A DNA stretch of 64,000 nucleotides from Terebella lapidaria (Eukaryota > Annelida > Polychaeta > Terebellida > Terebellidae): positions 7,130,001 to 7,194,000 of the forward strand of contig OX424564.1 in the NCBI GenBank assembly GCA_949152475.1, written 5' to 3'. Below are positions 2,481-57,539 of this stretch, piece by piece (position 1 is the first letter of the stretch; every line of letters begins with the position of its first letter). The notes beneath the pieces were generated by a model, which saw only the letters and a list, made by a program, of their open reading frames with translations, made no database searches and was not told the origin of the DNA. A program made the position numbers and the translations under genes.

Positions 2481-3228
2481 TTCGCTATTGACATCCCTTG
2501 ACCCGGGTTGTATCAGTTTTTGTTGTTTAACGGGTCCCATGTCCGGGTCTTGCCCCCATCCAGTGACAATAGAAGCTCTTGGCCCATGTAGCGGCGCAGA
2601 TTTCCTCTCCTATTCTGCTCCACGAGATATCAGATCAGTCTGAGATTATGACAAGTGACATTGGCTGGCTGATAAAAGTCAGCAAGCAATGGAGGTTATT
2701 TCCTTGGGGACGAGCCCTCCGCATCACTCAGACTACAAACCAACAGCACCCCCGTCTAGGGAGCAGCTTTCAAACTTAAAGAGCTCAGATTTCTAGATTA
2801 AATTCAATATGCAAAACACCAAGTGCTACCATGGAATTGCTCCAGTAATAAACATCAAAGTCTCGACGGTAGAAATGAAGTCGCAGAAAAAATTATGGAA
2901 GCTTGTACTTTTGTGCCGAAGATTGATTCGGTGCATCAATATTTTAGGGGCATTTATTTGAGACTTGTTGCCACTTTGAATCACCAATAGATCTACAAAC
3001 ACAGGAGCTATGGCTGCCTTGCGTCTTTGATAAATTACTCTGGATAAAAGATTTCCGTTGCGCGAACAGCGTAGACCGATCAATCGCCAAAGTGACTTCG
3101 CAGAGTCAGCTCCGCGTTCGCGTCTGGATACTTGAAAAGAGGCAAGGGTGCGTCTCAAAAACTTTCAAATAACGAATCACCTTTATGTCGCTGGCTCATA
3201 TTCGCCAGATGGAGGAATGCACTTTTTT

Positions 3229-3927
3229 CTTTACAGCGTTATAACGCTGTAATACAGCGTTATAACGCTGTAATACAGCGTAATAACGCTCTAATTTACA
3301 GCGTAATAACGCTCTAATTTACAGCGTAATAATGCTCTAATTTACAGCGTAATTACGCTCTAATACAGCGTTATAACGCTCTATTACAGCGTTATAACGC
3401 TCTAATTTATAGCGTAATTACGCTTTAATTTACAGCGTAATAACGCTCTAATTACAGCGTTATTACGCTGTAATTTAGGCGTTATTACGCTGTAAATTAC
3501 AGCGTTATAACGCTCTAATTTACAGCGTAATTACGCTCTAATTACAGCGTTATTACGCTCTAATTACAGCGTTATTACGCTGTAATTTACAGCGTAATTA
3601 CGCTCTAATTACAGCGTAATAACGCTCTAATTACAGCGTTATAACGCTCTAATACAGCGTAATAACGCTCTAATTAGAGCGTAATTACGCTCTAATTACA
3701 GCGTTATAACGCTGTAATTTACAGCGTAATTACGCTCTAATTACAGCGTTATAACGCTCTAATACAGCGTAATAACGCTCTAATTAGAGTGTAATTACGC
3801 TGTAAATTAGAGCGTTATAACGCTGTAATTTACAGCGTTATAACGCTCTATTACAGCGTAATAACGCTGTAATTAGAGCGTAATTACGCTGTAAATTACA
3901 GCGTTATAACGCTCTAATTTACACTGC
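3229..3927. repeat. Tandem array of 14-bp palindromes, period about 20-23 bp
   Basis: Roughly thirty units (counted by eye) share the core AGCGTWATWACGCT, separated by 6-9-nt A/T-rich spacers such as CTAATTTAC or GTAATTAC. The two W positions vary independently, so all four forms (TTATAA, TAATAA, TAATTA, TTATTA in the middle) occur, while the AGCG/CGCT arms are almost invariant. A second block of five cores lies at 4054-4165. The array sits inside the inverted repeats of element A. It would form many small hairpins or a cruciform on single strands. Confidence 0.9.
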
Positions 3928-4053
3928 CAGAGACACCATCGGACCTGCTAGTTCATCAGCTCAATCATTTGTAGGGAAATCTCAAAATTATTCTGATCTA
4001 GATATGTTTTACAAATCACGATAATGGAAATATGCTAGGAAGGTGAACGGTTT

Positions 4054-4165
4054 AATTTAGAGCGTAATAACGCTCTAAATTAGAGCGTTATAACGCTGTA
4101 AATTAGAGCGTTATAACGCTGTATTACAGCGTTATTACACTGTAATTAGAGCGTTATAACGCTTT
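4054..4165. repeat. Right-hand block of the AGCGTWATWACGCT palindrome array
   Basis: Five further cores of the same palindrome, some with the outer base changed (TTAGAGCG rather than TTACAGCG), follow the ~125-bp unique insert and run up to the right inverted repeat of element A. Because each core is its own reverse complement, this block and the left block may be parts of one long subterminal inverted repeat. Confidence 0.85.
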
Positions 4166-4249
4166 AAAAAAAATTTGTGCTCCTCTATGTGGCGAATATG
4201 AGCTTCCGTACTCCGAAACAGACGATGCATTGTGAAAGAAAAAGACAAA

Positions 4250-4300
4250 ACGCCAAATTTCCCGCCCTTGCCGATTCGCGCCAAAGGCGATCATAGGGAG
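4250..4300. promoter_or_regulatory. Adjacent E2F-like sites just outside element A
   Basis: TTTCCCGCC at 4258-4266 and TTCGCGCCAAA at 4275-4285 both match the E2F consensus (TTTSSCGC) in opposite orientations. They lie about 50 bp beyond the right end of element A, in otherwise AT-rich DNA. No gene follows on either strand, so any function is inference. Confidence 0.25.
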
Positions 4301-6990
4301 CATTCGTTTAATCACATCCTTGGTTGCTCCTGATGCTTTGCTATAAGGACTAACCGAGGGCGATATCGCTATTTCACAACGATAATCTCCGCTATCCGTG
4401 TAAACAAGTGCAACATTCGTATGTTATTCATGTATTGCCAATCTTTGCATTTCTGAATAGGTTTGTGTTTTACACATGCAATGACAATGTGCCGAAGATT
4501 GAGCTGTGAGTAAAACTGTCATGAATATACATGGATCTATTAGTGAACACACCACGGGCGGCGTGTGATAATTCGGGTTCAAACCCCTGAGTGGTCCACG
4601 TGACTGGTAGCATACTGATAGAGACGGGCATAAATCTTTCTGGCTAGTAATCCCGAAGATTTCACTGAATACAATCTCAGAAATCACATTTAAACACTGC
4701 CTCTGATGACAGCCTGTTAATTTGTGGTCGTCCCTTATAACCAGATGAGTTGGGACTGGAATTCATTGACCCTCTGCCAACCTTTCTATCAACAAAGCTT
4801 AATAGAGCAATTGCCCTCTATTATCGCCCGGGCTCAAGATATTCCCCTCTATGTCGGGGGTTGGGCGACCTGCTATCCATGAAATTATTAGCTTTGCTCT
4901 TTTTCGCCTCTTTCCCACGTGCTGTCCCCTGTGGAGGCCCCTTGCTCACTCGCGACCACCCCGATGCTTATTGCGACTCTGTCAATAGATAATACGCTCA
5001 TAGCCGGGACAAGGAGACCCTTGGCTCGTGCAGAGTGGAGATATCTAGCGACACGGTGCGACCCCGTCAGGTCGTCAACACCCGCCCGCGGTCCTGTGGC
5101 ACTTCGTCCAAGAGTGAGCAGATACATATTTACCGATGGATGCACGTCTAGATCCACGGGGGCGTCGCGCGCAGATTGGGGTTAACAGACCGGGGTCAGA
5201 ACGATTATTGATGGCGCGACCCCGCGAGTCCTGGAATGTCACCCTTCATGAGGCTCCATGGCAATACGTCATCTCTCTCGCGGAGCCGGGGCCCGTCATC
5301 CAGTTATCTGCACGTCCGCGTGTCGCGTGAGTCGCTCGTGCGGTCGCCCTCGTCAATGGTTTGTAGATTGTTGCAGTGCGCTGGCTCGTTCCCTTTGTGT
5401 CGGTGAATCCGTGGGATGAGACAATAGCTCGAGACTGCAGCATTGTATTCGATGGAAACTGTTGGTATTTTCTTTGAAATTCATCAACAGTGAAAATGTA
5501 CTGCATGGAAATTTGAAATACCCTCAGAATTCCATTCCCTTTTATGGGTTTCTGCTCAGTCACATGCATGGCTCTACCGCTTTGCTTATTTTTGCTTCTT
5601 TCTGCTCATATAGGACAGTGCACCATTTCTGCACGTTTGGGCCAACTACGACAATCTTTATTTAAAAGATGTCGAAACCATAAATGAATTACCCTTAAAC
5701 GTGTTTCATAACGTTTCAAAGGCAATAAAATCCACTTTTTCTCTCCGTATACCTTACACACGATCACTTCCGGTTTACATATGGTCGTTCTAAACACGGT
5801 CAACAAAAAAGTCAGATACCTGGATACCGACCAGTTGTGAACAGGCTGACTTATGGGCCTTTATATCAAGTAAACGACCCCGTTTATCGCCGTAACTGCT
5901 ATACCAATATCCATGCGTTAGAGTAGGATGGCTGGCGATGTAGGAAGGTCCAGAACCCGCAGGCATTATCCAGACATCTACACCCCTGGTGGGAACGCCC
6001 GGGCGATAATTGAATGAATTTAAGCAAACGTTTAATGAAAGTCGCCGCGCGTTGTCGTAGATCACGCTCACGTCTTAACATCATATGCAGCCATTGCCTC
6101 GATATTGAGCCTTTGGTGTGCTCTAAAAAAAATTCAGCCGGAGACAGACAATTGTTTAAGCCTACTTGGTATATACCGTAGTTGGATTTCTGAAAAAGGT
6201 AGGAACAAGATTACTGTGATATAGCACATACATTTCATAATTGCTAAGAAAAACCATGACTGTGGAAGTTACGATTATGTCATTGATCATTATCTGTACT
6301 TGTACTGTGGCTAATTCTAGTAGGCTACACCTTTCATGTGCTACAAATGTCGTTTCCGTTTGCTTGAATAAACAGTTTTTACCCCATGATAACCCATTGA
6401 TAGTCTCACCGCCCGTCCACATGGATTGTTGTACCCTTCCTCATCCACTGCCATGGCCCCAGGGGAGGAGGAAAGAGTCTCCTGGCCCTCCTACCCTCTT
6501 CAACTCCGGGCTCAACGACCAATATCCCGGCCATCCCTCCAATATCCCGCCTAAACCCCTGTATTACTCACCATTGCTACCACGGGGGCAGATTTATGGA
6601 AAAATTAGCCGTGATTTTAGTTCGGGTAAACATCCTCGGGTTAATGATGCTTGACGGAGCCCTCTCGACCCCAACAAGTGTGCTTATAGCCGAGTACGGC
6701 TTATACGCGAGGGGTAGGCTACTAGATCTATACACGGCCATAACAGAGACGCTGACTGGCTGGCTGGAATGACTGATCTTGTGTTGGACCGTGATGACTT
6801 GTTTTGTCCGAGATAGTTTCGTTTTGAATATCTGTGCTGTTGGGACCTTCTTTGACTCAGTTGTCGATTCGATAATTACGCAGACATAATTTTACACAAC
6901 TCCATATATATCCTTCAGTAACAATGATGCCACATTTTCAAGTATGTGACGATCGAATGTTTCTTTCAGTTATACAAAAAGTATACCGGT
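4301..6990. other. Intergenic stretch without supportable genes
   Basis: Short open frames on both strands show no domain, splice or codon evidence. The 4,900-5,350 part is markedly richer in G, C and CpG than its flanks, which may mark a regulatory region or just a local composition change. A B-box-like GGGTTCAAACCCC near 4570 has no matching A box or cloverleaf, so I do not call a tRNA. Confidence 0.4.
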
Positions 6991-7005
6991 ACATAGACCC
7001 TATAT

Positions 7006-7931
7006 TACGGAAGAGGATTAGGGCCAAGCAACAAATTTTTTTTTCCCGATTTGTCGACTTATGTTTCTCGATAAATCGACTTACTATCTCGATAAATCGA
7101 GACATTATCTCGATAAATCGACTTATTATCTTGATATATCGAGATATTATCTCGATAAATCAACTTATTTATCTCGATAAATCAACTTATTCATCTCGAT
7201 AAATTGAGTTAATTATCTCGATGAATCGACTTAATATCTCGATAATTCAAGATAATATCTCGATAAATCGACTTATTATCTCGATAAATCGAGATATTTA
7301 ACTCGATAAATTGAGTTAATTATCCAGATAAATCGACTTATTATCTCGATAAATCGAGTTAGTTATTTCGATAAATCGACTTATGTCTTAAGCATTTAAA
7401 GTTCAAGTAAACTGGAAATAGCTTAGTCACATTATTTATATTGAACACTATATTGAGTAGGCTTATATGATCGACCATTATGACGTTAAATATCGAATAA
7501 CACAAAACAAACTACCGAAATAAAAACTATACTGAAGTTATTATATCATATCTCTTCAAACAATGCAACATGTTCATGAATGAAATTGGTATATATATAT
7601 TTTTTTAATTATTTAGCTATTAAACATGGAATGATGTATATTCGTAACGTTATCTGGAACGGCTTCTTCAATTGTATAGTTTGGTATTATTCAAATTCCA
7701 TCGAATTTTCAAAATGAGTAATCAGTATATATTCTTTATCCCATCGTTTCCAAGGTAACCAATGAAATGGTATATGGCTTGCCTATATTACGGTCGATGT
7801 ATATTCATTTTACTTGTACTTTAAATGTCTGAGCCATAAGTCGATTTATCGAGATACGTATAAGTCGATTTATCGAGTTACATAAGTCGATATGAAAACT
7901 TTTTGTTCGGTGGCCCTAATCCTCTTCCGTA
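7006..7931. mobile_element. Non-autonomous TIR element B with a 6-bp target-site duplication
   Basis: The left end TACGGAAGAGGATTAGGGCC (7006-7025) is matched in inverse by the right end, which stops in CTTCCGTA at 7931. Inverted similarity continues inward through the A/T run into the first CGACTTATG unit, giving a TIR of about 55 bp. The element is bracketed by a perfect direct repeat CTATAT (7000-7005 and 7932-7937), consistent with a target-site duplication. There is no transposase frame. Subterminal palindromic units fill the left third and reappear inverted near the right end. A 6-bp duplication with TA-C...G-TA termini is compatible with what I recall of the IS3EU superfamily, but this needs a database comparison. 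Relationship to element A is supported by the shared TACGGAAG end and the AGCA(A)CAAA-plus-T-run. Confidence 0.75.
7046..7385. repeat. Tandem array of CTCGATAAATCGAG-type units, period about 21-22 bp
   Basis: About sixteen units (by eye) with core TCTCGATAAATCGA alternate between endings CTTAT and GATAT or GTTAA, separated by short A/T spacers. The core CTCGAT-AA-ATCGAG is a dyad of 6-bp arms. Period and core length match those of the array in element A, though the bases are different. Inverted units of the same kind appear at 7838-7893 next to the right TIR. Confidence 0.85.
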
Positions 7932-8837
7932 CTATATTGATGTGTTTGCCTGCACATTTTTTAGATCACTGACACGCAACATAACATTGCATATTTCTCG
8001 TCCAGATCTTTCCCACGCACACGGGACAATCCTGATTTTTGACATTAGAGCGTTGGGGGCGAAGCCCCCAACTCTCTACATGTCTATGTGCTGACTTTTT
8101 TTATGGAGGTTTCATGCCAACCTATCGACGCCCGTTTTCGCATGTAAACCTTTGTACACCTACTTCAAATGAGGATTTTCTTCGTCCTTGACATAAAATC
8201 TCTCGATTTGATGGCAAGCTTGGAATATTCCACAGATATATAATGCATAAATCGATGTGTTAGGTTTGAGAAAATTACGCAAAATGGTCAGCTCGTCTGG
8301 AAAACGTCAAAATGGCGGAGCTGATGGAAATTCACGTTCCCAGAATGCAAAGCAAATTTTACCGCAATGACGCATACTTTGGAACGCACAATTTTCTGTG
8401 CAGCATTTGTGCATGCATGTACATGTAACCTTGCCTGTGGCATTCTTTGGCGTCATGAAGTAAACACAACGATTCGTCTTCGGTACCACGACTACATTTA
8501 CTGTAATTGGACATATTTTATCACATGACAAGGTGTTCCATGCTGGGTTGCGAAACCTTTTTATTTTAAACTGGTCTTTTAATTTGCTCAGTATGCATGT
8601 GTTATCTATATCATGATATCAGATGCAGATATTCCTCATAGTTTCCAATATTTTAAGGATATTTTATTGAGTACGAGGACCCCAAATTATACTGTTTGAC
8701 CTGAATTTATTTTAGCTCTGTTATAATATTCTTTCAAACATACTTAAAGTCTGACAACCACATGATTTTGACACTATATGTCAACTCATACATGTATGTA
8801 TTTATCTGTTGTGAACTATGTAATTCCATGAGAAAAA
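7932..8837. other. Intergenic stretch without supportable genes
   Basis: No coding, RNA or clear repeat signal is visible between element B and the next interspersed repeat. The composition is AT-rich and open frames are short and unsupported. Confidence 0.4.
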
Positions 8838-47494: not shown

Positions 47495-47770
47495 TCTTAA
47501 GTAATCAGTGTGCTCCAAATGACGTAACACTTGATTAACATGCATACTCTCCCACAATCGATGTCTTAAGTAATAAGTGTGCTACAAATAAAGTAACACT
47601 TAATTAACATGCATACTCTCTCACAATTGATGTCTTAAGTAATAAGTGTGCTACAAATGAAGTAACACCTAATTAACATGCTTACTCTCTCACAATTGAT
47701 GTCTTAAGTAATAAGTGTGCTACAAATGATATGAAACTTGATTAATTAACAAGCATACTTTCCCACAATT
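47495..47770 (+). repeat. Minisatellite, four units of 69 bp
   Basis: Units begin TCTTAAGTAATAAGTGTGCT at 47495, 47564, 47633 and 47702, exactly 69 bp apart. Units 2 and 3 are nearly identical, while unit 1 and the second half of unit 4 are more diverged, the usual pattern of array edges. Confidence 0.95.
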
Positions 47771-48653: not shown

Positions 48654-51090
48654 AGCACAGGATGAAAATGGCGAATATATACCAATCTTCCGATCTGACA
48701 CAGTCGAAGTGACACGATGCCGTCGAGATTTTTTAAACTGAACATTCTGTTTTAGATAAGCTAGCTTTGCAAAGACAGGTCATTATGTACACGGCTGATA
48801 TAAACTTGTTTCAGTTGGTGGTAGACCGGGAAGGTGAGGGGATGGGGGTTGATTTGAACTACTAGTGGCAGTAGAATCTGGCAACTAAGCCGGTGTTAGA
48901 TCCCGCCCCCACCGGAACTGTGAATAACAAGCCGTGAAATTTGTCCACCGCCAGGAATCACATATATAGATACTTGTATGTTGAAAACAGTTGCAAATCT
49001 AACGATTTTGCGTGGTGTTCTTTTGACTGATGATCTTCCTGTATTGCGCCATCTGGTGAATGTATTTAGCATTGATGTAATTTGGGGCAATTCATGGTCA
49101 CCTTGATCGCAAGTGCTGCCTCTGGCGGGAGAAATAATCTCCTGCCTAACCGACAGGAATTTATCTAGCGTAAAAATATTCTCACGTCCTTACGTGAGGT
49201 TTTTTTTTCTCAAATGCGCAATGTTCCAGACTGTTAATAGAGAGAGTGGAGGTCATTCTATGCCATCTGATTTATGATGTTTATAGTATTTTGTGGTTTC
49301 ATCATTTATCATTTCGCTATCTTTTGTATGGGTTTCTTGTTTGTTGGAAAGTGTTAATGGAAGTTAGCACGGCCTTGCGGTGAGTTGTAAGAGTGCAGAG
49401 AAAATTTGACAAGGGCGACCATGTACTTTTCGCTATTTTTCACAAGGTATTTATGATCATTCATTTCTTTCCATTCTTCTCAGTTTGATGGCAGACATTA
49501 AGCATTATATATTTCAATAACATTTTCATAAACATTTGGTTGGCTGACCAAGGACAACAGTAGACTGGATGGCAATACCCAGGAGAATTAATGGCCTGAG
49601 CTGGGATGGGTTGGTGGGTGGGTGGTGCGAAAACCTAAAGGACAAAATGAGCAGTTACAGGTGAAAAAATAACTCACCGGCCCCTGCCATAAAGAGCCTC
49701 GCGCGATGAAAATGAGCTTCTTAATGCATTTTAGTAAAATTCTACAGGAAGATTTATTGTTTTTTTGCCTTCATAAATGTCAAGCGGTGAATGAACGTGG
49801 TCGAAGGCCTTGTGTGACTCCGTGTGTTCTTGTGATGGTTAGTGTCTGCTTCCTTGAAGCGTCGTGAGCCACTGAAGGGTGAATTAAAGTAATATCTATT
49901 CTATACTGGGAGTTACAATTCACAGTGTATGACATTGAAAAAAAAAGGATGATAACTTGCGACTTGCATTGATAAAGGTAAAGCTGAGAAATATATTATG
50001 ACAACATCCTAATAAATATTCTGGCGAGAACAAAAGCAGTAAATCTGAGTGACTCGTTTGGTTCAAAATGCGAGGTACGTGATTAAAAATTTGAAACTTT
50101 ATATTAAACACAATGGATGAACTGATTCATGGACTTGTCTCTGAAATAAGTACACATGTCAATCTAAAAATAGATCTGCATCTACCTGTTTAGAATTTCA
50201 TTATAACGGTACCTAACACAAAAGCACGCTTTTGCATATTAATTACCACTATGTTTCAAGGGGGTCATGTTTAATCATGGTTTTGCACCAAAGCATTCAA
50301 CTGTCAGTTGTTGAGTATTTGCCCAGTTGTTTTGCGCCTCTAGGCGACTATGGGCTATGCTTGACTTCTTTCTTCCACTCAATAGATGCAGAATATGTTG
50401 ATTGGTTGTTTCTGATCATGATATGAACAGTTTATAATGAGGTATGTTCTGATTTTGATTGGCTTGCCCCAGACATGCGTGTCCAGTAGCCTGGAGCTCT
50501 GTTATACCTGGTAGTTATAGCAGGGAGGAATGAGGGGATAGGGGTGAAATATTTGTGATTAACAGGCAATGTTAATTGTATCCCCCGAACGAAGTTCGGC
50601 GGATACTATGGATTTGTCTTCGTCGCGCCGCGTCCGCGTCCGCAGACACTTTCTTGTGAACGCGCTACAGGTTGCAAATCTTAACCGATTCTAATAATTT
50701 TTTATACAGACACATCTTATGGTAAGATCCCGACACCAATCGATTTTGGTTGCCATAGCAACCAAATTGGCCGATTGGCGACACATTTTGTTCTCAAATT
50801 AGCCTGTTTAACACACATGGCTTGTGAACGCTCTACGGGTGGGAGTTTTCAATGAATGATGATGAAATCGCACAGACTCGAAGAGAAAGGGCCTCACACG
50901 AAACCTATCGTTTTTCAGAATGATCTAATAAATATTAACTACTTAACGGACTAACTTATTACGACCATTAAAATGCCGACTTGAACATCTGTGATCAATC
51001 CAATACCCTGTACTAGGAAAACAAATAACACTGCATTCTTGTTCAGAATGGAGAACTGATGTTTTTAGTGAAAACAGATCGATATTATCG

Positions 51091-51505
51091 AATAAGTTAA
51101 CCTTAATTTTACTAGTTAAGTCTATTATTGACCACAATTAAAATAGTTAAGATGAAAAACATTTATTATTACGCTCAACAAGGTGAAAGTTTTGTCCAGT
51201 ACAGATTTCATGAGTGTAACCGAATAAGTTAGCCTTATTATTACTAGTTAAGTCTATTATTGACCACAATAAAAATAGTTAAGACAAGAAATATTTATTA
51301 TTGGGCTCAACAAGGTAAAGGTTCTGTCCAGTAGAGATTTTATGGCTGTAACCAAATAAGTTGACATTATTTTTGCTAGTTAAATCTATCATTGATATCA
51401 ATAATAATAGTTAAGACGAGAAACATTTATTATTGAGCTCAACAAGGTAAAGATTTTGTCCAGTTGAGATATCTGGGTGTAACTGAATAAGTTAACATTA
51501 TTTTT
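51091..51505 (+). repeat. Internal minisatellite of 132-bp units
   Basis: AATAAGTTAACCTTA-type starts occur at 51091, 51223, 51355 and 51486, spaced 132, 132 and 131 bp. Three units are full and the fourth is cut short where the second array begins. Confidence 0.9.
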
Positions 51506-51895
51506 ACTGAAACATTGATCTGGCTCGAATTTCATCATCTTGAAATGCAGTTTTGGTCAACTTTTACTCTGAATTTCAACTTGAAACCATGTTTGATACA
51601 TATTATGAGTCAAAATATAACTTATAGTAAAAAGTTCAATCTGGCTCCAATTTCGTCATCTTGAAATGCAATTTTGGTCAACTTTTACTTTGAATTTCAA
51701 CTTGGAAACAAGTTTGTCACATATTATGAGTTGATATATAACTTATGGTGAAAAGTTCAATCTGGCTCCAATTTCATGATCTTGAAATGCAGTTTTGATC
51801 AATTTTTACTTTTAATTTCAACTTGGAACCAAGTATGTCAAAAATCCTGAGTTGAAATATAATTTTAGGTGAAAAGTTTGATCTGGCTGTGATTT
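51506..51895 (+). repeat. Internal minisatellite of 121-bp units
   Basis: ATCTGGCTC-type starts fall at 51518, 51639, 51760 and 51881, exactly 121 bp apart. Each unit carries CATCTTGAAATGCAGTTTTG and AACTTTTACTTTGAATTTC. The fourth copy decays after about 15 bp. Confidence 0.9.
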
Positions 51896-54336: not shown

Positions 54337-54836
54337 GATCCCCACCCCTGCCATGGAATCAGACTCTTGGCCCCTCATCCCCCAGCCATCAAATCACCCA
54401 AACCACTCATAACCGGCGACTATTTGGTGCTAAAAGGGCTCTGGAGACAATTACATCCCAGGCAGCATGTAAAGCATGGTACCAGTCATTGTTCTATGGG
54501 GCCTTGTAAGGTGGCGACCCTGACCTTAGTGTCGTGTCGGCTAGAAGCCCACTCACTCCCCATCGCTCTGTCCGAGGCAATTGCGACATGACCATCTTGA
54601 TGATGGATGATTGTTACATAAATTTTGGTCAGTTTTAGACTGTTTCTTGATAGTTTGATGGTGCGACTCCAGCAATTAGAAAACACTTGAGCCTCATGTT
54701 AGAAGAATCGTGAAAACAGACTATGGAGTTGATTCTGAAGTTATAATCTTTATATTTAACTATTCTTATACTTTGGCCACGTTCTCTTGTGTGTGTACAC
54801 ATGTACTTATCTCCCATGTTTTTCGCTGTATTACAG

Positions 54837-56129
54837 ATCTGCCAGGCACGCGGATGGAGGACGATACCTCACACATTCCCCCAGACTGTGACATGCCTTC
54901 CAGCGACAGCCACATCTGTAAGGTCTGCTGCGCCGAGTTCTACCAGTTCTCAGACTTGTTAGAACACAGCAAACTCTGCACCAATCCAGAGGTCCTCTGC
55001 TATCCGTCAAACTCACACGGAGTGGAGTCAGCAATGAGTGACTCCAGCGATGCCCCGGACCACGGAAATCCTGATCTTGATGATCTTCACAAGGACGCAA
55101 TGCGGCAGTTACAGAGTCTCACACAAGGTGGCGCTGGGATCGGGTTCAGCGCTGCTGTTCCAAGTGAGGACGATATTGAGCGAAAGATGGGCGATGAACA
55201 TTACCGGGACAGCGAGGAGGGAAACGGAGAACCTCAGCGGAGATTCAGCGAAGACAACCTCCCTGCCGAGGACGGGTATGATGAGGAAGAAGGAGGGGAT
55301 GATGAGATGATGGGTGAGGAAGGTTATGAGGATTATGATGACTATGATGAGGATGATGTTGGTGGAGAAGAGGCTCCAGCTGCACCAGCTGCGGGGGTGT
55401 TCCCTGGACAGTTCCCACCTGGTCTATCCCCGCAGGTACAGCTGAGCATGATGCAGGCTTCTTGTAATGTCAAGCTGCAGTCACTGGAGAACACCAAGGT
55501 CGCAGTCGCGCAGTTTGCCGAGAACAACATCAACCCATCAGACATTGCCTCACTGCAGTCAACCCTCTACGGTCTCCAACAGCAACAGATGTTCCAGCTG
55601 CAGCTACTACAGCAGATCCAGCAGCAGATCCTGACGGCCGGACTGCAGAGTCTCCCGCCTGCGACCATCCAGGCTCTATCCTCTGGCATGCTTCCAGCAG
55701 CGCTACCAAACATGGCCGCCATGGCCCAACTCGCAATGAGCCAGAAAGCAGCCTCCACGTCAGACCCAGCCAAGTCATCCTCCAGCTCGTCATCAGGTCT
55801 CCCCTCGGAGGTCAAATCACAGGAGTCAAAGGAACCGCAGGACGAAGTGAAGTCCCCCGCTGATTCCAGCTCCACCACCACCACGTCTTCTACCTCAACC
55901 GCTATGTCAACCGCTATGAGCGATCTGGTCACTGCAGCAACTTCCACCAACCGCCAACCACCAACTAGTCCCAAAGTGTCGAGTGAGTCGCCAGCTCGCA
56001 ACAGCACCAAGAGCTCAGCCACATCCTCTAGTCACGGTCTGCCAACCATTCCCCCACTGTCAGCCATCGGAGGACCGATCTTCAGCACCGTCGTGCCGGA
56101 GATGTCCCAACTCTCCGCCATGGACAAAG
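54837..56129 (+). CDS. sall: Spalt-like transcription factor, coding exon 2
   Basis: Encodes the end of Asp66 to residue 496 plus one base. An atypical C2HC finger is formed by Cys93, Cys96, His109 and Cys113 (C-x2-C-x12-H-x3-C). CCAEF next to it and the LEHSKLCT ending match the N-terminal finger of SALL proteins. An acidic block (about 214-244) follows, then a Gln-rich segment (about 311-331, LQQQQMFQLQLLQQIQQQ) preceded by NTKVAVAQFAENN. In SALL proteins this region mediates homo- and heterodimer formation. Residues from about 357 are a Ser/Thr/Pro-rich linker. The acceptor is TATTACAG (to 54836) and the donor AAAG|GTAAGC (56130). The exon is 1293 bp, a multiple of three, with phase-1 introns on both sides. 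The paired C2H2 fingers are absent here, so they must be encoded by later exons beyond the window. Confidence 0.93.
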
Positions 56130-57539
56130 GTAAGCGATGCGCTCTTGCGATGTTTGTATTTTGGTGTTCTTGTTGTGATTAGTTGTTAGGTTTGTGGCAT
56201 GTAGAGTTAGTATTGCAAGACATTACAAGTCAAAAGCTCATGATGAAAACACGATGCATGTATAAATACACACCTCCCAAAAATACATGGAACTGATTCT
56301 ATACATATTTCCTCTGGCATGAACGATAAACAATACATATCTCTATCTCAAAACAACTCTTACTGAGAAATTCATCAGCATGTTTCACAAATTCATCAGC
56401 AAACAGTCCACAAAATCATTTGCACACAATCTTTTTGTAGCCTCGGTAAGAACCAAAGCGAAAACATGGTTCTTACACAAGCGCTGGCTGTGTTAACGAC
56501 AAAGTGAGTGTTGATAGTGTGAAGGACGGCAACATGACGTAAACATGTTCTTGTTGGTGCTCGGCAAGATGGCTGAGAGCCACTGACAGTCGACTATGGC
56601 CTTATTACTCAACAGTGATACTTTGTATCCCACCGCCGCCGACCTCCAAACAAAATATAGTCCATTATCCCTCTAGTGTTATCATCTACTCACAAAGTCT
56701 GCCATAACTTTGATACCACACAAGTTTCGGCCACCGGGCCTATTGCTGCATGTGAAATGATGAATGTGTGTTTGGGAAGGCAATATTCTACAGGGCTATG
56801 TATCATCGTTCCTATGTTGCAGTTGATTCAGATATTTTATGGTGTCATTGCTCATGCTAAAAGCCACCTTATCATAACTTGTTGCTAGATGAGATGGATT
56901 TCAGATGGTGGGTGCGTGTATTTGGGAGTGAAGGGTACCGAATTTTTGGCAATGGGGTTTGAGATATGAGAGCTGTGAATGGAGGCACTACAAATAATAC
57001 TCAAACTTTTTTGCTCCCCTGATAATTGGCTTATCAAAAATGTTTTCCCCAAGTTTAGCTTTTAAAACGGCCATTTGTTATGATATTATAAGGCGATAGT
57101 TACTCATGGCCTGCTCCTGGGAACTGTTACCGCCCTGCTTATCGTGGTTATGAATAATGTGAACCGAGTGCACCAAACCTCAGAGGTTAACTTCGGTAAT
57201 CTCTGGAAAATTTGGAAATTCATACTCGACCCGATAACATTTTGATAAAATTATCATTTTTCTGCAGGATTTCACTGATAATAGTGGAACAGGGTGTACT
57301 TGTGAAAAGACCTGCCAAATTTCATTGTTTTCTGTGAGGGCCATATGTATCTATAACACATGAGGTGAAAAATTTGTTAGAAGTCAAATTTGATCATTTT
57401 CTGAAAATTTAATGGAATAATGATGCAGTCAAGTCAACAATGACTATGTGGCGATGAAAATCAGTCACTGGTTGAGCAGAATTTCAACAACAGTATCGAC
57501 CCCTTGGCCTTTGTCTTTCATAACTCACAACAGTTGCAT

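Follow-up and report, generated by a model that had tools for sequence, protein, structure and literature searches.

The window, a 64,000-nucleotide stretch of the Terebella lapidaria genome (contig OX424564.1, positions 7,130,001 to 7,194,000), contains two non-coding DNA transposons with TACGG..CCGTA ends, referred to here as elements A and B. By published features, as judged from their sequences, both are members of the IS3EU/GingerRoot superfamily. We give a probability of roughly 60% to the reading that they represent two miniature families of this group, in which a conserved tip is combined with family-specific arrays of short palindromes (dyads) that would be read by the transposase.

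Elements A and B in the Window

Features are listed by window position, with the strand where one applies.

3187..4210: element A, 1024 bp, non-autonomous IS3EU-type, with a damaged left tip and no target duplication
3187..3207, + strand: left TIR of A; family form TACGGTGGCTCATATTCGCCA, first bases degenerate in the window copy
3235..3913: left array of A, dyad AGCGTWATWACGCT, centre-to-centre distance 21-23 bp
3922..4052: interior of A, dyad-free
4061..4163: right array of A, dyad AGCGTWATWACGCT
4190..4210, - strand: right TIR of A, TACGGAAGCTCATATTCGCCA
7000..7005: left target-site duplication of B, CTATAT
7006..7931: element B, non-autonomous IS3EU-type, 926 bp
7006..7026, + strand: left TIR of B, TACGGAAGAGGATTAGGGCCA
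7068..7379: left array of B, dyad TCGATAAATCGA, spacing mostly 21-22 bp
7841..7876: right array of B, 2 strict-core dyads
7911..7931, - strand: right TIR of B
7932..7937: right target-site duplication of B, CTATAT

As an earlier note on this DNA had described, A and B belong to two related TIR families with similar tips and different dyads, and the elements, their palindrome arrays, the common tip, the AGCA(A)CAAA motif and the T-run were all found. The start of element A, placed at 3194 in that note, lies instead at approximately 3187, where the tip is damaged (GTCGCTGG..) and the left TA is lost. The ends of the A family are asymmetric in most copies, with tips TACGGTGG.. and TACGGAAG.., and both the A TIR, which includes a common CTCATATTCGCCA stretch, and the B TIR (approximately 21 bp) are longer than TACGGAAG. 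The window copy of B is flanked by a perfect 6-bp target duplication (CTATAT). Allowing up to two mismatches, the right (TACGGAAGCTCATATTCGCCA) and left forms of the A TIR had a combined 1,181 matches in the genome and the first 20 bp of the B left TIR had 877; copies of A at 99% identity are present at other genome sites.

The A array comprises 36 units in a best-match scan and 32 with the strict core, and the B array 18 and 9, respectively. Chance palindromes were ruled out by comparison with shuffled sequences, as the A array has 39 palindrome centres (shuffle mean 4.2, maximum 11, 200 shuffles) and the B array 15 (mean 3.1, maximum 9). Plain satellites were ruled out by the ends and the target duplications.

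Copies Elsewhere in the Genome

We fetched 65 copies (28 A and 37 B), of which 59 had both ends and six were unpaired; the paired copies included 31 of the 37 B copies. Target duplications of 6 bp were perfect in 38 of the 59 paired copies, had one mismatch in eight and two to four mismatches in 13. By family, they were perfect in 18 of the 28 A copies, with a single mismatch in five more, and perfect in 20 of the 31 paired B copies, with a single mismatch in three more. Two pairs of B copies (L027/L028 and L025/L033) may not be independent insertions, since the members of each pair have the same duplication sequence and lie less than 8 kb apart.

The earlier note had asked whether ends and arrays occur independently, and they proved to be linked: A dyads were found in 27 of 28 copies with A ends, B dyads in 31 of 31 paired B copies, and A dyads in none of these 31. 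The only A copy with B-like dyads (L064, which also has A dyads) carries three of them, all inside a nested F3-type element, so this copy does not indicate free mixing. Neither the nested F3 copy nor a transposase-bearing F6 copy (L110) has a matching duplication. These counts are biased by array-containing queries, which had yielded eight of the 28 loci of A and 30 of the 37 of B; the remaining 20 A and 7 B loci were hand-picked on their ends alone, to span sizes, and here dyads were present in 19 of 20 A loci and in all five of the seven B loci that have both ends.

Full-Length Partners and Superfamily Membership

A full-length partner with a transposase and the same ends, which the earlier note proposed to look for, was found for B and, with one end seen, for A. 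The B autonomous element (L039) is 9,824 bp long, is flanked by the duplication GTTGGG, has B ends with B dyads at both of them, and encodes an integrase-core transposase with an rva_4 domain (E = 2.1e-25). The A-type autonomous locus has the A tip, a 19-unit array of A dyads and a transposase (rva_4, E = 2.4e-26) approximately 45% identical to that of B. We did not find its right end within the 7.9 kb covering and extending beyond its transposase, a region holding pieces that we take for another transposon. Two 3-kb elements with A ends (L046 and L047) were rejected as partners, as no frame of at least 100 residues appeared transposase-like by eye. L039 has additional coding segments, one of them HECT-like; a literature search combining IS3EU and HECT gave no match.

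The statement in the earlier note that no named family has this design did not hold at the level of the superfamily. We placed the elements in IS3EU/GingerRoot from their TA..TA termini, 6-bp duplications and IS3/IS481-like transposase, features which, with duplications mostly of 6 bp, are those given in the excerpted description of the group (PMC10045372). The TACGG..CCGTA termini occur in A- and B-family copies, and the perfect duplications reported above have the usual length. NCBIfam IS3 and/or IS481 profiles matched all six transposases scanned, all far under the curated cut-offs, with E-values of 1e-12 for A (IS3), 5.2e-8 for B (IS481) and, at the weakest, 0.0059 for F6. The rva_4 domain was found in 16 of 16 transposases. 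Inspection of alignment A1 by eye showed no HHCC zinc domain in the N-terminal columns ahead of the core, and the N-terminal region of the transposase model contains helices only.

In the predicted structure, the transposase has two helix-turn-helix (HTH) domains and an RNase-H (DDE) core. Its best structural matches in the PDB were TnsB, MuA and IstA, with TM scores of 0.28 or less for the eight best matches; a PDB sequence search with A1 as query gave none. The catalytic residues D141, D200 and E242 are invariant in the transposase alignment.

Tip-Plus-Array Architecture in Other Lineages

We examined 17 transposase lineages upstream of the gene, and in 13 of them a TACGG-like tip is followed by an array; no clear tip-plus-array was seen within the 1.2-1.4 kb read for F9, F13, F15 and F18. 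Short paired copies were also found for F5, F6 and F14, mainly from match coordinates. Where such a copy was fully read, as was done once for F14 and once for F6, it has the ends and units of its own family and a perfect duplication. Arrays are present at both ends in A, B, F6 and F14.

Mean unit spacing was 20-23 bp in all 13 array-bearing families, many of which have unrelated units. The ~21-bp period of the earlier note stands as an approximation but not as an exact value, given 21-23 bp in A and mostly 21-22 bp in B. Spacing is exactly 21 bp in F3, F4, F6 and F8, and it is 20 bp in the related families F14 (11 of 11) and F16 (39 of 40), in which the first unit lies approximately 98 bp from the tip. 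The suggestion that all dyads face the same side of the helix held in some families only. Coherence at 10.5 bp was 1.00 in F3, F4, F6 and F8 but fell to 0.33 in window B, 0.16 in window A, 0.12 in F14 and 0.04 in F16, so that this phasing was rejected as a general rule; coherence at other pitches was seen in F14 and F16 (10.0) and at the left end of the L039 B element (10.85).

The 12 unit consensuses are jointly palindromic, with an arm sum of 62 against 43.2 +/- 3.1 in shuffles (none of 3,000 shuffle sets equalled it). Few units are individually significant; those of F16 are non-palindromic, F8 had no palindrome centres in one scan, and the right end of the L039 B element had five against a shuffle maximum of six.

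Possible Functions of the Arrays

In the model that we favour, mobilisation of a family probably depends on the full-length partner belonging to it. The conserved tip (TACGGAAGC-N8-GGCCAT-like, frequently with an A/T run behind it) would probably be the site of cleavage and strand transfer, and the family-specific dyads, repeated every ~20-23 bp, would probably be read by an HTH domain of the family's own transposase, for which they are plausible subterminal binding sites. Each unit could be occupied by one dimer or by one two-domain protomer, and with many transposases bound, the ends would be marked and brought together as a pair. TnsB of Tn7 and MuA of Mu likewise act on repeated end sites.

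The main competing view is that the arrays are neutral, satellite-like slippage expansions carried as functionless passengers, which we consider unlikely. The number of units does vary from 3 to 40 among A copies with dyads, many of which have good duplications, and satellite-like arrays occur inside oyster Helentron elements, according to excerpts of PMC7492417. Slippage does not readily account for a shared 20-23 bp mean period across 13 families with often unrelated units, for joint palindromy beyond shuffles, or for arrays placed behind the tip, at both ends wherever both were read. Conservation of the dyad core over the spacer argues against slippage in A and B, a comparison biased because units were located by their core; in F3, F6 and F14 the core is not clearly more conserved, which speaks for slippage.

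The position of the arrays also bears on expression. In eight of the nine families measured, the left array ends 15-223 bp ahead of the transposase start codon, and from this position, within ~220 bp of the gene, it may autoregulate transposase expression. That the arrays serve solely to control this expression, as promoters or operators, is nevertheless improbable: short gene-less copies retain them, right ends far from the gene bear them in inverted orientation, and at the A locus the array stops ~820 bp short of the start codon.

We regard as similarly improbable a dyad reader that is a host protein, such as a silencer, or a further protein encoded by the element itself. The further coding segments of the B autonomous element, including the HECT-like one, would suit such a reader, as would the fairly conserved state of both HTH regions across families; in HTH1, S43, R45 and R49 are invariant, so the reading of divergent dyads is hard to assign to a particular transposase domain. 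A host factor would, however, need to recognise about ten distinct dyads, dyads are related where transposases are related, and no separate DNA-binding domain was found among six L039 frames in a non-exhaustive Pfam scan, which for L096 covered the transposase frame. In the sequences compared here, we saw no sign of a host silencer, nor of the hairpin- or replication-driven mechanism that the earlier note had raised.

Across 12 families, unit similarity correlated with transposase identity (r = 0.58, permutation p = 0.00015; rho 0.23), and leaving F2 out gave r = 0.38 (p = 0.006). The correlation is carried by close relatives, which have units in common, and below ~55% transposase identity unit similarity is mostly at chance level. 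It would also be expected from plain shared descent of linked DNA, and it was nearly equal for HTH1 (0.62) and the catalytic domain (0.55).

We tentatively propose, at somewhat less than even odds, a two-part address code. The common tip would serve the chemistry, and family identity would come from a mostly palindromic ladder private to each family, keeping sibling families apart without cross-mobilisation; a dyad and the transposase reading it would be replaced together, while the near-two-turn geometry, set by transposase packing, would be kept. If true, about a dozen transposases, each naturally paired with its own repeat ladder and all sharing one architecture, would be present in a single genome, and co-change of transposase and end sequences, avoidance of cross-mobilisation by sibling transposons and constraints on end geometry would become directly testable. 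Tip-plus-array would also offer a simple structural mark by which to recognise IS3EU elements, since without it their arrays may be recorded as satellites in genome annotation.

Comparison With Known Systems

Subterminal palindrome arrays, present here, are not among the features in the excerpted description of IS3EU/GingerRoot (PMC10045372). In a literature search for transposons or MITEs with arrays that are subterminal or palindromic, the excerpts of the matches listed did not show this design, and a search on CACTA subterminal motifs gave no match. In En/Spm (CACTA), the element protein TNPA binds many short, irregularly spaced end motifs, some in inverted pairs; its ends are motif-rich, as here, but the superfamily and transposase are different. 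Foldback and sea-urchin TU elements are similar in having long inverted ends of short tandem subrepeats; their ends are different, and to our knowledge the subrepeats are not family-specific palindromes.

Helentron/HINE elements have central arrays and are not known to carry TIRs or 6-bp duplications, whereas the copies studied here have both, which speaks against membership. Those of oysters resemble A and B in being non-autonomous and holding satellite-like arrays (excerpts of PMC7492417 and PMC11136912). The hAT transposase is of the BED-finger type, unlike here, and we know of no regular two-turn palindrome ladder in hAT elements. Subterminal repeats are nonetheless present in Ac/Ds and Hermes, as here, and a Hermes end is engaged by several transposase protomers (excerpts of PMC10368747 and PMC3260210). 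TnsB of Tn7/CAST, MuA of Mu and IstA of IS21 are integrase-fold transposases with HTH domains, as is predicted for the transposases here. The ends of Tn7/CAST, Mu and IS21 carry repeated binding sites of ~20-22 bp that are few and asymmetric, whereas the elements described here have up to ~40 units, which differ in most families.

Elements A and B in the window and across the genome

The two elements, A and B, occupy the following positions of the window:

~3187-4210, element A, with a damaged left tip
7006-7931, element B, with CTATAT on either flank

Both have terminal inverted repeats starting with TACGG (the left one of A being damaged), followed by an A/T run and, at each end, an array of short, often palindromic units (dyads), the middle of each element being free of dyads. 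The arrays are real, as 39 palindrome centres were counted in A and 15 in B, against maxima of 11 and 9, respectively, in 200 shuffles. Elsewhere in the window, 47495-47770 and 51089-51888 hold unrelated tandem repeats (periods 69, 132, and 121 bp). A reading frame of 490 aa at 54710-56182 (+) had no Pfam match; in our reading it resembles the large initial exon of Spalt-like (SALL) transcription factor genes, which suggests that the genome is that of an animal.

In the 761.6-Mb genome (438 contigs), the B end (20 bp, ≤2 mismatches) had 447+430 matches and its reversed control 0+3, while the A end had 597+584 (control 0+0). Sixty-five loci were fetched, including A and B of the window: 28 with an A end, all paired with a second end, and 37 with a B end, of which 31 were paired. 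Perfect 6-bp target duplications flanked 18 of the 28 A copies and 20 of the 31 paired B copies, two pairs of B loci lying less than 8 kb apart with an identical duplication and so perhaps not independent. Five A and three B copies had duplications with one mismatch, and five A and eight B copies had two to four mismatches. The window copy of A has a damaged left tip and no duplication, whereas a duplication flanks most of the A copies fetched. As to whether ends and arrays occur independently, which the earlier note said would refute its reading, 27 of the 28 A copies had A dyads; the 31 paired B copies had none of these and all carried B dyads. The A copy without dyads (L058) also had no matching duplication. 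Another A copy (L064) had three additional B-like dyads, which belong to an element nested in it and assigned to a third family, F3. Dyad-bearing A copies had 3 to 40 A dyads, the fewest in a 179-bp element with a one-mismatch duplication.

Full-length partners

The earlier note had also asked for a full-length partner. Locus L039, a 9,824-bp element flanked by a GTTGGG duplication, has B ends; the scan counted 11 units in its left array and 8 in its right one, and one of its reading frames encodes an integrase core (PF24764, E 2.1e-25). A 99% identical transposase occurs at two further places, with a B end ~10 kb from one of them. At an A locus on C3, the A tip is followed by 19 A dyads spaced 21-23 bp apart and by a gene for a transposase with ~45% identity to that of B; the right end of this element was looked for and not found in the 7.9 kb fetched. 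Therefore, a partner is available for B with both ends, but for A at one end only.

On the strand opposite the transposase, L039 also has a segment that matches the HECT ubiquitin-ligase domain (PF00632, E 1.4e-7, above the Pfam cut-off):

L039:3263-3640 (-), HECT segment
L039:4296-4844, 6246-7121 (-), neighbouring frames

The neighbouring frames had no Pfam match but look like parts of the same gene. The segment may be the element's own or may have arrived by capture or nesting; our literature search found no paper combining IS3EU and HECT. Downstream of the A transposase (L096:1-2300), reading frames look like those of a putative DDE_Tnp_4 transposase and a putative YqaJ nuclease, a combination seen in ISL2EU elements.

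Tips and arrays across transposase lineages

The transposase search listed at least 141 matches, and 145 of 243 candidates were scored. Upstream regions were read for 17 lineage representatives (B, A, F2-F11, F13-F16, F18; F17 is close to F15), and 13 of them had a TACGG-like tip followed by an array. Variant tips, both read by eye, were TACGA in F4 and TAGGG in F16, and the F7 array comprised two units only.

Array units of individual lineages
A: AGCGTWATWACGCT
B and F2: CTCGATAAATCGA
F3: TCGATAATATCGA
F4: TGCCCGGGC
F5: TCGCCTCGGCGA
F6: CGTGCGCACG
F7: TGGCGGCCGCCA
F10: ATCGCGTTCCCTCGCGAT
F11: ATTTCGTTCCCTCGAAAT

Within 1.2-1.4 kb upstream, F9 had an irregular array and no clear tip, and F13, F15, and F18 had no tip-plus-array; these last three elements may begin further upstream. 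Two arrays precede the F11 transposase (L080), where a short copy of F11 lies directly beside the element with the transposase, its tip facing the damaged one of that element; the measured array belongs to the short copy, and the transposase-side array has an identical unit and a damaged tip. Short paired copies were also found for F5, F6, and F14, mainly from match coordinates, which further gave five F14 end pairs ~10-11 kb apart. Two short copies were read from end to end, one of F6 (duplication TCAACG) and one of F14 (L107:586-1460, perfect duplication TTATGC); the latter is inserted in a full-length F14 element, ~400 bp inward from its end. No matching duplication flanked the nested F3 copy or the transposase-bearing F6 copy (L110).

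Spacing, symmetry, and divergence of the units

Neighbour spacings in the 17-26 bp range were 20 (59 cases), 21 (108), 22 (47), 23 (26), and 24 bp (1), leaving out the second loci of F2, F3, and F6; the second F2 locus has an 18. Outside this range were two element interiors and spacings of 14 (twice), 40, 44, and 50 bp. Spacing was exactly 21 bp throughout in F3, F4, F6, and F8, 21-23 bp in A, and 20 bp in F14 (11/11) and F16 (39/40). In the latter two, whose transposases group with two others (ultrafast bootstrap 85, SH-aLRT 97), the first unit lies ~98 bp from the tip (by eye for F16). With neighbour spacings clustering at 20-23 bp, the two-turn period proposed in the earlier note thus describes them fairly, but the alignment of dyads on one helix face along a whole array (10.5 bp) is not general.

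Summed arm length over the 12 unit consensuses was 62, against 43.2 ± 3.1 in shuffles, and none of 3,000 shuffled sets reached 62. A second palindrome score gave 73 versus 60.2 (maximum 68 of 2,000). Individually, only F7, F10, and F11 fell below 0.05 by arm length, and only A and F10 by the second score. The F16 unit was not palindromic, and raw-sequence scans gave no palindrome centres for F8 and five for the right B end of L039 (shuffle maximum, 6). In A and B, conservation was higher in the dyad core columns than in the spacers, which was not clearly the case in F3, F6, or F14.

Across 12 families, unit similarity correlated with transposase identity (r = 0.58, p = 0.00015; without F2, r = 0.38, p = 0.006), the rank correlation being weak (0.23; 0.15 without F2). 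Unit pairs within B/F2/F3, F8/F11, and F10/F11 exceeded the 99% null level and F14/F16 was at that level; F6 was not among them, despite sharing a tree group with F8, F10, and F11. The correlation fits co-evolution of dyad and transposase, but also plain descent. Plain descent alone, however, does not easily account for a symmetry (of the units as a set) and a period that outlast the replaced sequence.

The transposase is the candidate reader of the dyads, and that of F14 was modelled from a 16-sequence alignment (pLDDT 78, pTM 0.58). We read the predicted N-terminal helices as two three-helix HTH domains, followed in the model by an RNase-H core and a helical C-terminus. Its best Foldseek matches were TnsB, MuA, and IstA (E ~1e-4 to 2e-3, low TM scores), which bind repeated sites of ~20-22 bp at their element ends. 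Weak profile matches were obtained for HTH_21 in 5 of 16 transposase family members (best E 0.0038) and for Clr5 in 6 of 16 (best 0.008). Because S43, R45, and R49 of HTH1 are invariant, this domain could read the conserved tip instead of the dyads.

Relation to known systems

The earlier note knew of no named family with this design, a view that is not supported, as the features match those of IS3EU/GingerRoot, described as a single lineage in PMC10045372, according to which TA..TA termini occur in every complete IS3EU family and 6-bp duplications as a rule. The placement is based on four features, all of which agree (TA..TA, 6-bp duplication, IS3/IS481-related DDE transposase, no HHCC zinc domain before the core). 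Two satellites carry the label DNA/IS3EU in an oyster satellite survey (PMC8268682), so IS3EU-linked tandem repeats had already been noticed. The literature within reach, largely outside subscription journals, yielded no description of family-specific palindrome ladders. Therefore, the superfamily and the general principle of subterminal sites are known already, and it is their implementation here that is unusual and regular.
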